Shown piece after piece: positions 17,474-23,897 of a stretch of 64,000 nucleotides of DNA. Position 1 is the first letter of the stretch; each line of letters opens with the position of its first letter. This DNA is from Evansella cellulosilytica DSM 2522. Lineage in GTDB: Bacteria > Bacillota > Bacilli > Bacillales > Salisediminibacteriaceae. The position numbers and the translations under genes were made by a program. The stretch is taken from contig NC_014829.1 of the NCBI RefSeq assembly GCF_000177235.2, forward strand, positions 1,922,001 to 1,986,000, in the 5' to 3' direction. A model generated the notes under the pieces. It did no database searches. It worked only from the letters and a program-made list of their open reading frames with translations, and was not told the origin of the DNA.

Positions 17474-18745
17474 GTGCCGTCAAAAATAATATTCCATGTC
17501 GATATGAATAGTTTTTATGCATCTGTTGAAGCAGCTTATGATTCAACTTTAATGGGAAAGCCTGTGGCGATAGCTGGAAATGCAGAAGCTAGACGAGGGA
17601 TTGTTGTTACTTCAAGTTACGAAGCGAGAGCAAGAGGTGTAAAACCGCCGATGCCGCTTTGGGAAGCATTAAAAAAATGTCCAGAGTTAGTAGTCCGAGA
17701 ACCAAACTTCGAACGGTACCGACATGCTTCCAAAAGAATGTTCCAATTGCTTTATGAAATAACGCCTCTTGTAGAGCCAGTATCAATTGATGAAGGCTAT
17801 TTGGATGTAACCGATGTCCACTTAAAAATGCAAGCTATTGAACTAGCCAAGTATATACAAACGCGAATAAAAAAAGAGCTAAACCTTCCATGTAGCATCG
17901 GTGTTGCACCAAATAAATTTTTAGCTAAGATGGCTAGTGATATGAAAAAGCCAATGGGTATAACAATACTTAGAAAAAGAGAAGTACAAACAAGGCTCTG
18001 GCCATTAAAAGCTATTGAAATGCATGGAATAGGTGCAAAGACAGCAGATAAGCTTAATAAGTTGGGGATTCACACAATCGAGGATATTGCGTTAAGTGAC
18101 CCGTTATATCTCAAAGCTAAATTAGGAATAGTAGGAGAAAGAATACATGAACGCGCGAATGGTATTGATCAACGTCCAGTTGATCCACTAGCAGTGGAAG
18201 AGTTTAAAAGTATTGGTAACTCTACAACATTGCCAACTGATAGTAAAAACGTAACACAAATAAAAAAAGTAATTATGAATTTATCAGATTCTGTAGGGAG
18301 AAGGATAAGAAATAAAAATGTATATGCAGGTAACATACAAATAACGATAAGGTACTCCGATTTTTCAACAATAACGAGAAGTAGTAAGTTGCATCATCCC
18401 GTTCATTCTCATAAAGAGATATTCGAGGCTGCCTGGTCATTATGGCAAAAGTACTGGAGCGGTGAAAAAGTGAGACTAATAGGTGTTACTGCAATGGATC
18501 TAGTTGAAAGGGGTCATGCTTTTAAGCAGTTAGATTTATTTTCATACAAAAAGGACGAAAAAGAGGAAAAGTTAAGTAGTGTTGTAGATACGCTAAAAAA
18601 TAAATTTGGAGAAAATGTTCTCTTAAAAGGAACCCAATTAGGAAGTAAAGACAGAAGTGATGATTTGAGAGATAAAAATAAACGAGGGACTAGTTTAGAG
18701 AAAGATTTCTTAAGAAAAGATTTGTTTCATAATGAGAAAGAATAA
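17474..18745 (+). CDS. dinB: DNA polymerase IV (Y family, DinB/YqjH)
   Basis: A 423-residue translesion polymerase. Palm motifs are HVDMNSFYAS (near 8-17, first catalytic Asp) and SIDEGYLD (near 104-111, Asp-Glu pair). The little-finger region is typical, and QLDLF near residue 354 matches a beta-clamp-binding motif. A lysine-rich tail of about 60 residues follows. It starts at GTG 17474 after TAGGTGA. No GAAC-N4-GTTC LexA box was seen upstream, unlike the second Y-family polymerase in this window. Its location after the yqjE-like region matches B. subtilis yqjH. Confidence 0.93.
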   Translation: MPSKIIFHVDMNSFYASVEAAYDSTLMGKPVAIAGNAEARRGIVVTSSYEARARGVKPPMPLWEALKKCPELVVREPNFERYRHASKRMFQLLYEITPLVEPVSIDEGYLDVTDVHLKMQAIELAKYIQTRIKKELNLPCSIGVAPNKFLAKMASDMKKPMGITILRKREVQTRLWPLKAIEMHGIGAKTADKLNKLGIHTIEDIALSDPLYLKAKLGIVGERIHERANGIDQRPVDPLAVEEFKSIGNSTTLPTDSKNVTQIKKVIMNLSDSVGRRIRNKNVYAGNIQITIRYSDFSTITRSSKLHHPVHSHKEIFEAAWSLWQKYWSGEKVRLIGVTAMDLVERGHAFKQLDLFSYKKDEKEEKLSSVVDTLKNKFGENVLLKGTQLGSKDRSDDLRDKNKRGTSLEKDFLRKDLFHNEKE

Positions 18746-18831: not shown

Positions 18832-18858
18832 TAAAACAAATAAGCTTTATGCCGATAT
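18832..18858 (+). promoter_or_regulatory. Sigma-D (flagellar) promoter
   Basis: TAAA at 18832-18835 and GCCGATAT at 18851-18858 are 15 bp apart, an exact fit to the Bacillus sigma-D consensus. It reads toward the FliK-like gene 38 bp downstream. Confidence 0.85.
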
Positions 18859-18896
18859 TAAGATAGACCGTTTGATTCGTAGAGGAGAGTTGAACT

Positions 18897-21377
18897 ATGG
18901 AAGTTACAGGACAACTGATAAATATAAAAACAACGAATAATGATCGTCCCCTTCAGTTGAGGGAAGGTGGCGTATATGATGCGAAAATAGAATCAAGAGT
19001 TTCCGAGCGTGAAGCGGTAGTGTCGATACGTGGTCACAGAGTGAGTGCGACTTTTTCTGAAGGTGTACCAAGTGGGGATCGTACTAATGTTCAAATAGAA
19101 GGTAAAACGGAAGAAGGAGTAAGACTTAGAGAGGTTCAAGGACAGACAGAACGTGAGGGGCGAAGGGATCACACATCTAGGGAACAGTCTGTTGAAAGGT
19201 TAATGAGACAAAGCCTTGACAGACCAGCTTCACCAGAATTAAGACATGCTGTGCAACGTCTCATTCAAAATAATGTTCCTTTACCAAATGAGTCTGTTAA
19301 AGAGTTAAATCGATTTATTGAACAAGGAACAGGTACTAGAGAGCAGCGTGTGCAAACTGTAGATACGATTGTAGAGAAACGCTTAGAGCCCACTCGAGCT
19401 CATTTGACCTCTGTACACGAAGCGTTACATGGTAAAAAAGTGCAGGAGCGGATAAGTGAGATAGATCCGAAAAGAGAGCAAAGGACCGAAACGAGAAATG
19501 TGTCTCGTGTCGATACACAACAAGTTACAGACAGTAGAAGAACGGAAGCGAGTGTAGACCGTCAAATTCAAGGAGAACGAAGAGACGAACCGATAGTCAC
19601 AAGACAATCAGATGAGAGAAGAGAAGTACAGCCGAGAGTAGAGCGTTCATTCCAAGAACAACGGGTCCCAAATGAACAACGTCAAGAACTAACACGCTCC
19701 CTTGAGCAACTAGTACAAAGTAATCGCGCGGAATGGCCAGCAAATATTAGAGAAGTTCAACAAGCCATTGAACGAATGGAACAAGAAGTAAGAGTGAATG
19801 TAAACACCGGCCTACGTGAGGCGCTTCAGCTTCAAGGAATACAACAGCCAGAATTAGCAAACGAACGTATTACACAATTAATACATCAAATTCAAGGACA
19901 AGCAGTATCTACATCAGTTGAACAAACTGTAAGTATTGATAGAGGTCAATTACAGCAGTTTTCATCACTTATACAAAATGAAGCAAATTTACAACAAGCA
20001 TTAGCAAGTATACAAAATACGATAACAAACGCAGCTATCCCAAGAGAAGTAGAGCAAATTTTAAATCAAGGTATGGCAGAAGCTATTGAAAAGCTTGAAC
20101 AAGGCCGTGAATTAAAGGCAAGACAACTGATGATCGATACACTTCAAAAAGCAGAAGTTTTATTACCGTCAATTCCTGTATCTAGTCAAAGTGATAGTAG
20201 GACAGAGATACAGCAATATATTTCTAACGAGATCTTACATTCTGTTGATAGAGCGTCAAAGCAGTTTTTAATGACAGAAGTGACAGAAAGACTTGCGACA
20301 GCGACAGATGAGTTTAAAGCTTTCAAACGTGATGTCACAAATCAATTAACTCGTATTGAACAGATTATTCAACAGTTTCGTTCGCAATCGGTGCAGCAAG
20401 CTAAGCCAATGCTTGAAAATGTGATTCGTCAGTTAGATAATGCACTACTAAAAAATGATTGGCTATTATTTGCTGATATGAAGACAGAAAAGCAAGTTCT
20501 TGAAGCAAGTTCGCGATTAGCGGAAGCAAAGAAGTTGTTGATGAAAGGAAATCACGTAGAAGCACGACAAATTGTAAGAGAAGTCCAACAAACGCTAGAT
20601 AAATTAAATTTTAAACCTAATAATCAAAAGGTGATTCATCATGCTACGAGGGAGCTTGAATGGCAAGAGAACCGCCCACATGCGCATCGATTATCGAGTC
20701 AATTTGAAAATACCGTACGTACATTGACGTATAATCAAGGATCAGGGCGTGAAGTTTTTGAAGGTTTACGATCTATAGGGCTAAATCGTGAAGCGGAGTT
20801 AGGGCAATTGTTAGCTTCAGGTAAGGAAATAAAGGAAGATCAGCAAAGAAACATGAAATCTCTTCTTTATCAAGCCGCGCGAGAGGAAGAAGGTAGTAGA
20901 GCACAACAGCAAGCGCAACAGTCTTTGCAAAATTTAACAGGACAACAACTATTAAGTAGAACAGATCATCAGCAAAATATGCAAATGCTCATGTTTCAAA
21001 TTCCTATGCTTCTAAAGGATGCTGTCGAGAATTTACAAGTGTTTGTAAACTCAAGAAATGATGGCGAAAAAGTAGATTGGGAAAATTGTAGTCTATATTT
21101 TTTATTAGATACGAAAAAAATGGGAGAAGTGGGCATTTCATTAAACGTAACCGATCGAGCGTTAAGCGTAACAATAAAAAATGATTCACCAAATTTAAAG
21201 GCAAAAGTAGAACCGTTAGCTAATAAGTACCTGGATAGGTTAAAAGACATTGGTTTTAATGTGAAAGGTCTACAGTTTAGCCCAATGACAGAAAAACGAG
21301 TAGAAGCTCCACAAATACGAGAAGAAGATCATCAACAACCAACAATGTCTAAAGAAGGGTTTGACTACAAAGTATGA
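18897..21377 (+). CDS. FliK-like hook-length-control-type protein (YlqG-like)
   Basis: An 826-residue protein. Residues 1-80 form a small beta-rich region (YDAKIESRVSEREAVVSI). Residues 80-690 are very rich in Gln, Arg and Glu, and helical, with no membrane segment or signal peptide. The last 130 residues resemble the FliK C-terminal domain, with alternating strands in LYFLLDTKKMGEVGISLNV and ALSVTIKNDSPN, and a final acidic tail. FliK sets hook length and triggers the FlhB export switch. An exact sigma-D promoter upstream and an overlapping FlhB-like gene downstream support a flagellar export role. The repetitive middle makes orthology to the main FliK unlikely. Confidence 0.7.
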   Translation: MEVTGQLINIKTTNNDRPLQLREGGVYDAKIESRVSEREAVVSIRGHRVSATFSEGVPSGDRTNVQIEGKTEEGVRLREVQGQTEREGRRDHTSREQSVERLMRQSLDRPASPELRHAVQRLIQNNVPLPNESVKELNRFIEQGTGTREQRVQTVDTIVEKRLEPTRAHLTSVHEALHGKKVQERISEIDPKREQRTETRNVSRVDTQQVTDSRRTEASVDRQIQGERRDEPIVTRQSDERREVQPRVERSFQEQRVPNEQRQELTRSLEQLVQSNRAEWPANIREVQQAIERMEQEVRVNVNTGLREALQLQGIQQPELANERITQLIHQIQGQAVSTSVEQTVSIDRGQLQQFSSLIQNEANLQQALASIQNTITNAAIPREVEQILNQGMAEAIEKLEQGRELKARQLMIDTLQKAEVLLPSIPVSSQSDSRTEIQQYISNEILHSVDRASKQFLMTEVTERLATATDEFKAFKRDVTNQLTRIEQIIQQFRSQSVQQAKPMLENVIRQLDNALLKNDWLLFADMKTEKQVLEASSRLAEAKKLLMKGNHVEARQIVREVQQTLDKLNFKPNNQKVIHHATRELEWQENRPHAHRLSSQFENTVRTLTYNQGSGREVFEGLRSIGLNREAELGQLLASGKEIKEDQQRNMKSLLYQAAREEEGSRAQQQAQQSLQNLTGQQLLSRTDHQQNMQMLMFQIPMLLKDAVENLQVFVNSRNDGEKVDWENCSLYFLLDTKKMGEVGISLNVTDRALSVTIKNDSPNLKAKVEPLANKYLDRLKDIGFNVKGLQFSPMTEKRVEAPQIREEDHQQPTMSKEGFDYKV

Positions 21378-21673
21378 TGGTTTCGAGACACTTTAATCAT
21401 ATAAAACGACGTGAAATAAATGGACCTACAGCTGCGGTTATACGCTATGATGAAGCATCAGGGGAAGAACCTAAAGTTGTAGCTCAAGGGAAAGGGCATG
21501 TAGCACAAAAGATATTGGCGCTTGCAAAGGAAAATGGGATACCTATGGAAGAAGATACACATCTCCTTGAAAGCTTACTGGATATGGATCTAGGTGAAAA
21601 TATTCCACCGCAGCTTTATAGTGTTATGGCAGAAATTTTATTATTTATTGAAGAAATGGATAGAAACTATTAA
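21374..21673 (+). CDS. FlhB C-terminal-like export switch protein (YlqH-like)
   Basis: A 99-residue protein matching the cytoplasmic domain of the FlhB/YscU export switch, without the membrane part. It has NGPTAAVIRYDE where FlhB has the self-cleaving NPTH segment, so autocleavage is not expected. The following PKVVAQGKGHVAQKI and DLGENIPPQLYSVMAEIL are family features. The ATG overlaps the stop of the FliK-like gene (ATGA), so the two are translationally coupled, as expected if the proteins interact like FliK and FlhB. Confidence 0.85.
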   Translation: MMVSRHFNHIKRREINGPTAAVIRYDEASGEEPKVVAQGKGHVAQKILALAKENGIPMEEDTHLLESLLDMDLGENIPPQLYSVMAEILLFIEEMDRNY

Positions 21674-21697
21674 ACATTAAATTGAAGTTGACGATAA
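21671..21697 (+). promoter_or_regulatory. Possible second sigma-D promoter
   Basis: TAAA at 21671-21674, then 15 bp, then GACGATAA at 21690-21697 (six of eight positions match GCCGATAT). It would serve the fliS-like and flagellin genes. Confidence 0.5.
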
Positions 21698-21771
21698 TAG
21701 TACTAGATTAGTTATAATTCGTGAATATATACAAGGATATAACAATATTCGCTTATGCGGAGGTGAAAATA

Positions 21772-22188
21772 TTGATTACAAATGAAGCATTGCATAAAAA
21801 ATCTCCACAAGAAATAACTGCTTTATTGTATGAAGCATGCTTAGACAATTTAGAGGAAGCGAAATTAGCGATAGAAAAAATAGATCATTTTAAATCAAAT
21901 ACACACTTACAAAAAGCAAATGATATACTGCGTCGACTCGGAGCAGGTCTCAACTATGAAGCAGGAATTATCGCTGATCAATTAGATGCTTTATACAATT
22001 ATTTAGCTGATAAAATAATAGAAGCAAACTATTCGAAAGATATAAAAAAAATAGATGAAGTTATTTCACACGTTCAATCAATAGCTAACGCTTGGCAAAA
22101 AGCAATGACACAAGCAGAAGATAAACAATCAAAAGTAAGGAAACAAAATGCCAACGCTTATGAGCAGACGGCTATGTATGAGAGCTGA
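21772..22188 (+). CDS. fliS: FliS-like flagellin chaperone
   Basis: A 138-residue helical protein. The N-terminus ITNEALHKKSPQEITALLYE corresponds to the FliS start, in which a short extension leads into the S-P-x-x-L/I-T-x-L-L-Y-E motif. FliS caps the C-terminus of flagellin and prevents premature polymerisation. An in-frame GTG at 21721 gives a longer product, but GGAGGTG at 21759-21765 fits TTG 21772, which also aligns with family length. The stop is 14 bp before the flagellin ATG, consistent with chaperone-client pairing. Confidence 0.82.
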   Translation: MITNEALHKKSPQEITALLYEACLDNLEEAKLAIEKIDHFKSNTHLQKANDILRRLGAGLNYEAGIIADQLDALYNYLADKIIEANYSKDIKKIDEVISHVQSIANAWQKAMTQAEDKQSKVRKQNANAYEQTAMYES

Positions 22189-22202
22189 GAGGGGATTTTA
22201 TA

Positions 22203-23855
22203 ATGAAAATTAACAATAATATTCAAGCATTAAATTCATACCGAAATTTATATCAAAATCAAATGCAAACATCTAAAAACTTAGAAAAATTATCTTCCGG
22301 TCTACGTATTAATCGCGCAGCAGATGATGCCGCCGGACTTGCAATCTCTGAAAAAATGCGCTCCCAAATTCGTGGTTTAAAGCAAGCTGAGCGTAATGCG
22401 CTAGATGGGATCTCTTTAATGCAAACATCTGAAGGTGCTATGCAGGAAGTGCATACGATGCTACAACGTATGAGAGAGCTCGCTGTACAAGCCTCTAATG
22501 ATACAAACACAGAGTATGACCGTGAGCAAATTCAAAAGGAAATAGATCAGCTAAAATTAGAGATTGATAGTATTTCTGAAAAAACAGAATTTAACACACG
22601 TAGACTATTAGACGGAAGCAGCGCAGTTCTTTCTGTCGTTGATAGAAACAGTGTAGAAACAAACCTTGTCGGTTCACCGAGAGTAACGGATGCGAGGATA
22701 GATTCTGGGAATTATTCACTTGCAGTTCATGATGTAACGATGAGTTATGATGTAAAACAGCCTTTTGCAGGGCTTGGTCAAACAGGTGCAAATGATATAC
22801 AATTTGTTGATCCAGGAAAACCGGGACAAGCACTTGGTGAATACACAATAGAAATACGTGAATTTACAGGTGAAAACGCACGTGTAACCGTAAAAGGTCC
22901 AGATGGGTTGCCAATTGTCGAAAACCAAGTAATTAACGCAGGTGAAGGCGCCGGTTGGGCAGAAGTTGGTGGGTTGAACATTAATGCTGGTAATATTACT
23001 GGATCAGGGACAGTTAAAATCCAGATCGAAGCAACTTTAAATGCTAGTGTGGAAAAAGAAGGCATAACAACTTTTGTAAATAGAGAGTTTACAACGCGTA
23101 ATGGTGTATTTAATCATAGTGGAATTGAGTTTAAGGTGAATAGTGATGTGCAATCTTCCTATATAGTAAATACAGAAGAGGACACAAATAATCACACAAT
23201 TAGCGCAACATCTACTCATAATGTTCCGACTTATGCAGAGTTGTTAGCAGATCTAGGTGTGAATCCTGATACTGCAAATGTTGTTAGAAATGCAGGTATA
23301 GATGAAGATGGTAACCCTATTTTCGTTAATGTAAATCTTGCCGACAAAGTTGTTGGAGAACCAATTCGTATTAATGGTACTTGGAATAATATAGATGTAG
23401 TAGATAATGTACCGCTTAACGAATTTTCAAAGGTTTCAAGAACAGAATTCTCAGTCACTAACAATTCCTTAGCGTTCCAAATCGGACCTAACACAAATCA
23501 AAATGTGATGATTGACATTCCGAAAATGGATACTGTGGAGCTGGGGATTGAAGACTTAAATGTTCTTACAAATGAAAATGCAAATAATGCTATCTTTGTA
23601 TTAGACCAAGCAATTAATAAAATTTCTGAAGCGCGTTCTAAACTTGGTGCTACTCAAAATCGAATGGAGCACACAATTAATAACCTACAAGTGACACATG
23701 AAAACTTGACAGCAGCGGAATCACGTATTCGCGATGCTGATATGGCACTTGAAATGACAGAGTTTACGAGAAATAATATTCTTAACCAATCGGCAACAGC
23801 GATGCTTGCACAGGCGAATCAATTGCCACAGGGAGTACTTCAACTACTACAATAA
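22203..23855 (+). CDS. hag: Flagellin
   Basis: A 550-residue flagellin. The N-terminal D0/D1 domain (residues 1-140) has MKINNNIQALNSYRNL and LSSGLRINRAADDAAGLAIS. The C-terminal D1/D0 domain (about 460-550) has NRMEHTINNL and NQSATAMLAQANQLPQGVLQ. Between them is a variable surface domain of about 320 residues, larger than that of B. subtilis Hag, which totals about 304. The variable part is acidic and almost free of Cys. AGAGGGG precedes the ATG, and a strong terminator follows. It sits apart from the usual flagellar operons, so it could be the main or an extra filament protein. Confidence 0.95.
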   Translation: MKINNNIQALNSYRNLYQNQMQTSKNLEKLSSGLRINRAADDAAGLAISEKMRSQIRGLKQAERNALDGISLMQTSEGAMQEVHTMLQRMRELAVQASNDTNTEYDREQIQKEIDQLKLEIDSISEKTEFNTRRLLDGSSAVLSVVDRNSVETNLVGSPRVTDARIDSGNYSLAVHDVTMSYDVKQPFAGLGQTGANDIQFVDPGKPGQALGEYTIEIREFTGENARVTVKGPDGLPIVENQVINAGEGAGWAEVGGLNINAGNITGSGTVKIQIEATLNASVEKEGITTFVNREFTTRNGVFNHSGIEFKVNSDVQSSYIVNTEEDTNNHTISATSTHNVPTYAELLADLGVNPDTANVVRNAGIDEDGNPIFVNVNLADKVVGEPIRINGTWNNIDVVDNVPLNEFSKVSRTEFSVTNNSLAFQIGPNTNQNVMIDIPKMDTVELGIEDLNVLTNENANNAIFVLDQAINKISEARSKLGATQNRMEHTINNLQVTHENLTAAESRIRDADMALEMTEFTRNNILNQSATAMLAQANQLPQGVLQLLQ

Positions 23856-23864
23856 GTGTATTTT

Positions 23865-23897
23865 ATGGAAGGCATTTCAAGTGCCTTCCATTTCTTT
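23865..23897 (+). terminator. Terminator of flagellin gene
   Basis: ATGGAAGGCA pairs exactly with TGCCTTCCAT across a 7-base loop, followed by TTCTTTT. Confidence 0.88.

Follow-up and report, generated by a model that had tools for sequence, protein, structure and literature searches.

The analysis was based on a window of 64,000 nucleotides from the genome of Evansella cellulosilytica DSM 2522 (positions 1,922,001 to 1,986,000 of the forward strand of NC_014829.1, a single contig of 4,681,672 bases), in which a sigma-D-type promoter site precedes five linked genes on the plus strand. From 5' to 3', these encode FliKL (a FliK/YlqG-like protein), FlhBL (a free FlhB C-domain-like protein), a FliS-like chaperone, a flagellin termed Hag-M and, beyond a terminator-like stem, YaaR (Table 1). 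With slightly better than even confidence, the set is interpreted as an old second-flagellin module, in which the FliKL-FlhBL pair would act once the main switch from hook to filament has taken place, at the export gate that both flagellins share. The parts of this interpretation read from the sequence are the genes and their order, the promoter match, the separate ancestry, the folds of the models and the one-sided association of flagellin and pair. A first-pass annotation of the same DNA had placed the genes at the correct coordinates and had described a set of four; those four are present, and the fifth linked gene, yaaR, had been overlooked.

Linkage, spread and promoter of the module

Neighbourhoods of approximately 10 kilobases (less at contig ends) were compared around 60 module loci outside the host and 20 hand-picked ylqH-type loci. 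The fliKL gene was found upstream of flhBL in 60/60 module loci, and FliS followed by flagellin was encoded downstream in 56/60. YaaR was within the stretch in 58/60; one of the other two loci (L094) stops at a contig end, and the second (L100, genome G106) has YaaR immediately outside the stretch. The ylqH-type controls had rnhB in 20/20 and sucC in 19/20, and fliS, flagellin or yaaR was found near none of the 20. Upstream regions were scanned for sites with at least 10 of the 12 positions of TAAA-N15-GCCGATAT, the sigma-D consensus. Such sites were present in 47 of the 70 distinct module regions, compared with 5.7% of shuffles, and in 0/22 ylqG-type regions; nine loci with the gene start near an edge were left out, and identical regions were counted once. 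The linkage is above chance because of the 56/60 loci against 0/20 controls and the 47/70 promoter sites against 5.7%, and chance or mis-annotation was ruled out by the first of these comparisons. The conserved fliS-hag linkage anticipated by the first-pass annotation was thus borne out, as was its exact sigma-D promoter, which matches at 12/12 positions in the window. Genes of the flagellar cascade that depend on sigma-D are expressed once the hook is complete.

The spread of the module was determined with a profile built from 23 FlhBL proteins. In 199 genomes of the order, 61 (the host included) scored 114-170 bits and the next match no higher than 86 bits. A search of 249 genomes of the phylum, with matches shown down to an expectation value (E) of 1e-25, gave three genomes other than the host at 125 bits or more and four at 91-95 bits. 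The module is thus common within the order and rare outside it. Named genomes, some species of which also occur in the unnamed set, were scanned with FlhBL and gave 25 loci, with the closest FlhBL (85%) in an Evansella. All five genes were present in 19/19 of the loci L015-L033, and two Anaeromonas loci (L034 and L036) had FliKL, FlhBL and YaaR, with FliS and flagellin absent within the fetched stretch; of the remainder, L035, L037 and L038 were ylqH-type and L039 was a full FlhB. The named carriers include Evansella, Salipaludibacillus, Halalkalibacter, Alkalihalobacterium and Litchfieldia. Alkaliphile genera, to which the first-pass annotation had pointed, do carry the module, but so do Niallia, Cytobacillus, Ammoniphilus and some Clostridia, and the occurrence in Clostridia and Ammoniphilus suggests either age or transfer of the module.

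The host was searched for other members of the same families, and the main fliK, flhB and further hag gene that the first-pass annotation had proposed to look for were each found besides the module copies. The FlhB family has one full-length member, the gene of which carries the NPTH motif and sits with fliK in a flagellar operon, and two short members (FlhBL and YlqH). Matches to Flg_hook (PF02120) were obtained for the main FliK (62 bits), YlqG (21.6 bits) and FliKL (20 bits), with two further weak places at E 0.47 and 0.81. Flagellin_N matched three proteins, namely Hag1, Hag-M and FlgL (the last read from sequence and place). There are two FliS genes, that of the module being the second, and ylqG and ylqH form a standard pair, flanked by rnhB and sucC. 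Since the host keeps its own fliK, flhB, ylqG-ylqH, fliS and hag, the module is extra; the possibility that it stands in for lost main genes was ruled out, with the main fliK, flhB, fliS and hag all present.

The yaaR gene of the module is the only copy in the host genome. Of 35 genomes searched, 30 had a single YaaR, one (G033) had it as two pieces and four lacked it; in 9/9 module genomes searched it was at or near the module. Five genomes had given no FlhB-type match at all: four of these lack YaaR, and the fifth (G052) has it but gave no flagellin match. With this distribution, YaaR (DUF327) is likely to have a flagellar role; a solved relative is the BH1478 protein (2qup).

Relation of FliKL and FlhBL to known proteins

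FlhBL matched PF01312 with 57 bits (cut-off 24.4), and the match is confined to the final 74 positions of that family. At 99 residues it fails the full-length FlhB model (TIGR00328), covering only positions 268-345 of 348, and the NPTH self-cleavage site, present in the main FlhB of the host, was not found in it. The first-pass description of a translationally coupled, FlhB-like protein of 99 residues lacking NPTH was therefore accurate, and the overlap with fliKL is ATGA; across distinct module loci, the overlap has this form in 78/79. Against TIGR00789 (FlhB-related small proteins), FlhBL scored 85.4 bits, under the curated cut-off of 117.35, and the YlqH of the host likewise fell below it (100 bits). 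A structure model of FlhBL was computed from 88 sequences, with a predicted local distance difference test (pLDDT) score of 78.4; its first 34 fold matches were C-domains of the FlhB/YscU family, and seven of all matches reached E <=0.001. The motif DMDLGxxxPPQL is common to all of the first 23 FlhBL proteins, with slight variants elsewhere (for example, DIDLG). The FlhB tyrosine at what we presume, from PDB titles and our own counting, to be the place of EscU Y316 is a leucine in FlhBL, with a one-residue gap, and was not used. In Ammoniphilus resinae (L028, 5974-8720), two FlhBL genes flank fliKL, one on each side.

In a tree of 100 alignment columns, for which the program warned of long branches meeting and from which L126 and L129 were dropped (missing start), FlhBL occupied its own side of a branch (76 rows, support 100/99) opposite 24 ylqH-type rows, with two FlhB rows placed inside the latter group. 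FlhBL shares neither the clade nor the rnhB-sucC place of the YlqH orthologues, and a recent copying of ylqG-ylqH is unsupported by this tree, with its few columns and long-branch warning. The two pairs are alike in the two-gene layout, in the ATGA overlap (19/22 on the YlqG-YlqH side) and in a similar C-terminal tail (16/22). They differ in that YlqG-YlqH forms a separate clade at the rnhB-sucC place, without fliS, flagellin or yaaR in 20/20 and without a sigma-D-like site of at least 10/12 matches in 22/22.

FliKL comprises a conserved N-terminal part, a long, variable, Gln-rich middle (11% Q) and a putative C-terminal switch-type domain. No match to Flg_hook was obtained with the whole length of FliKL; the last 142 residues scored 19.8 bits (E 7e-4), below the curated cut-off of 29.8. 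Among 90 related C-termini (71 from modules and 19 from YlqG), 45 matched Flg_hook at E <=0.1, the best at 1.4e-6. The model of the C-terminal part (190 residues, 90 sequences, pLDDT 80.7) had as its top fold match the PscP switch domain 5cuk (probability 1.00, template modelling score 0.52 by target, E 4e-3), an unrelated protein as the second, and the FliK C-domain 2rrl as the third (probability 0.98, E 0.07). In a profile search with the same part, 2rrl was second (E 0.13), and homology with the C-terminal part of YlqG was recovered by hhalign with a probability of 99.8. Kinship of FliKL with FliK is proposed because of the fold, the Flg_hook matches in 45/90 members and the relation to YlqG. 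The FliK-type C-terminus claimed in the first-pass annotation, to be checked by a hidden Markov model of FliK_C, is weak by sequence, staying below the Pfam cut-off; it finds support in the related C-termini and in the modelled fold, in which no match reaches E 0.001. At the extreme C-terminus, the tail G-x-[DN]-x-x-[IV] is present in 78/79 FliKL proteins of module loci.

Ancestry of Hag-M and proposed action of the pair

Module and canonical flagellins (71 and 20, respectively) were placed on opposite sides of one branch with support 100/99, in an unrooted tree in which the separation is visible and the relative age of the two sides is not. The canonical rows were Hag1 and proteins from 19 of 20 regions, L185 having yielded no protein by pattern; L074 and L081, which look mis-extracted at the N-terminus, were left out of a later tree. 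At least three Flagellin_N matches (FlgL included) were found in 59 of 61 module genomes versus 17 of the 70 module-less genomes covered, out of 138 available; some of the matches in these 17 are split genes. Twenty module-less genomes, namely these 17 and three others, were then typed with profiles; any sequence used to build a profile is bound to score as its own type. The 19 genomes that gave matches held no clear module-type flagellin (30 of 44 listed matches had loci), and one flagellin (L238) fell between the types at +1.4 bits.

Conversely, in four genomes of two genera (g46 and g59), FliKL, FlhBL and YaaR are together with fliS and flagellin gone (L122, L125, L127 and L129 in G180, G156, G112 and G139). 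Same-genus relatives (G074; G044 and G082) keep the full module, and all six listed flagellins of the four genomes fall on the canonical side (100/100, with the bootstrap not fully settled). Hag-M thus appears to need the pair, while the pair can apparently do without Hag-M, since 4/60 loci are pair-only and the 19 module-less genomes hold no clear module-type flagellin. The first-pass suggestion that the pair tunes export of this flagellin is partly supported: the linkage is conserved, but the pair does not serve this flagellin alone. Flagellin genes at L226 (G017:C8:82692-83388) and L227 (G032:C43:33504-34194) are interrupted within the N-terminal domain, with a similar split in G098. Group I introns were matched in both loci as well (84.6 and 73.7 bits, respectively), approximately 1 kilobase downstream of the N-terminal pieces.

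The probable target of the pair is the export apparatus in general, and the module flagellin probably depends on the pair. Presumably made under sigma-D, FliKL and FlhBL would appear when the hook is finished. FlhBL, without membrane part or cleavage site, resembles a cleaved FlhB C-domain and may bind at the gate, where FliKL, through its conserved C-terminal tail, could target either FlhBL or FlhB and so alter which substrates pass. The FliS-escorted module flagellin would then be admitted, or ordered beside the canonical flagellin, with YaaR as a possible further partner. Action at the gate is proposed because of a model for Salmonella together with the tail in 78/79 FliKL proteins and the nature of FlhBL as a free C-domain. 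In that 2026 model, the cleaved C-domain of FlhB is proposed to be ejected by FliK when the hook is complete; for this, FliK would use a fold in its C-domain together with its five C-terminal residues, which are proposed to act on the FlhB C-domain (PMC13344023). The module resembles this system in combining a putative switch-type C-domain with an FlhB C-domain, and the conserved FliKL tail is comparable; in Salmonella, unlike in the module, FliK serves as the ruler of the hook, and cleavage of FlhB gives rise to the C-domain (PMC13344023). FliKL and FlhBL are, moreover, separate proteins encoded behind a sigma-D-like site, additional to the main fliK and flhB. Counted from the first Met in the open frame, FliKL proteins of 70 loci are between 558 and 1524 residues long, yet their C-terminal end is conserved, as a ruler or tether might show. 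With the main fliK elsewhere, FliKL can hardly be a setter of hook length, because sigma-D products appear when the hook is finished.

An alternative given a real but clearly smaller chance is that the pair regulates export in general at a late stage of the one flagellum, affecting its rate or closing early export, with the flagellin along for co-expression only. The persistence of the pair and yaaR beside canonical flagellins in the four loci, and the two Anaeromonas loci described above, fit such a regulator; the 56/60 loci with flagellin beside the pair and the lack of a clear module-type flagellin in the 19 module-less genomes do not. The ATGA coupling and the long, variable, Gln-rich middle of FliKL would suit a scheme in which FlhBL caps FliKL as a cytoplasmic partner, and FliKL is secreted late and becomes filament-associated or stays outside, the specificity switch being untouched by either; this is considered improbable, as the C-terminal part of FliKL models as a switch domain and its tail is conserved. 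Least credible is a second, separate type of flagellum built from Hag-M, for which an own FliS and an own flagellin lineage could be cited, given that the host has only one full-length FlhB and that the pair persists where flagellin is canonical only.

Several observations weigh against the second-flagellin interpretation itself. The fold matches of FliKL have modest E-values (4e-3 and 0.07), none reaching 0.001, and its hhalign comparison with the lineage's own FliK, although colinear, was not significant (score 15.2, with unrelated and shuffled controls at 10.8-21.1). No site of 10/12 matches was present in 23/70 module regions, so the sigma-D-like site is common and not universal, and retention of the pair in 4/60 loci without module flagellin means that it does not strictly require that flagellin. 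Because of kinship among the genomes, the counts are not independent.

A more specific version of gate action, which we regard as rather unlikely, would make FlhBL an exchangeable plug: produced under sigma-D, it would refill the site left vacant when FliK ejects the FlhB C-domain at hook completion and would admit only one flagellin, until FliKL ejects FlhBL and the gate is opened to the other. If true, the gate would have a second, resettable specificity state, and two flagellins could be laid in order along the filament. For Shewanella putrefaciens, two flagellins in order in one organism are described, and the available part of that report mentions no linked FliK/FlhB-like pair (PMC6299084). 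Short extra FlhB relatives, FlhX or FlhB2, are described from Campylobacterota and Actinobacteria, and flhX and fliK are named together in Nitratiruptor, like fliKL-flhBL. The available parts of these papers mention no linked flagellin or fliS, the comparison being by description and not by sequence (PMC9321776, PMC10746217, PMC2864241). No literature on the module itself was found in the titles or abstract openings among the open-licence matches listed. Cargo choice by the flagellar export gate is a long-standing question, for which the module offers free-standing relatives of the FliK-FlhB pair that are probably made late and are linked with a second flagellin, and of which some lineages have naturally lost one part. 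As a genetic system, it could be used to ask whether C-domains are exchanged, whether switching occurs twice and why two flagellins are kept.

Gene layout and minor observations

Table 1. Features of the module, in positions of the window.
Feature	Position	Strand	Evidence
Sigma-D-type promoter site TAAA-N15-GCCGATAT	18832..18858	+	12/12 match
FliKL, FliK/YlqG-like protein, 826 aa	18897..21377	+	Flg_hook, fold, YlqG profile
FlhBL, free FlhB C-domain-like protein, 99 aa, without NPTH	21374..21673	+	PF01312, 57 bits
FliS-like flagellin chaperone, TTG start proposed	21772..22188	+	PF02561, 93 bits
Module flagellin Hag-M, 550 aa	22203..23855	+	PF00669, 161 bits; PF00700, 106 bits
Terminator-like stem-loop 3' of flagellin gene	23865..23891	+	12-pair stem, T tail
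YaaR (DUF327), fifth linked gene, 145 aa	23981..24418	+	PF03885, 152 bits

The FliS-like protein and the 550-residue flagellin of the first-pass annotation were both recovered by family models. FliS also passes the curated cut-off of TIGR00208 (72.6 versus 53.75 bits), Hag-M carries both flagellin helical domains, and YaaR passes the curated cut-off of PF03885 (25.8 bits). For fliS, the TTG at 21772, with GGAGG ahead of it, is the more likely start over the GTG at 21721, where the frame opens. Terminator-like sites numbered three on both strands, not above the 3.2 expected in shuffles, and the plus-strand scan found none between fliKL and the flagellin gene. Upstream of the module, at 17474-18745, is a gene that by its sequence seems to encode a dinB-like DNA polymerase, and such a gene is also upstream in 21/60 module loci. 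Beside hag1 (L014, 355-6845) are genes that by eye resemble those for sugar-nucleotide enzymes and for a motility accessory factor of 940 residues, and that might serve flagellin glycosylation.

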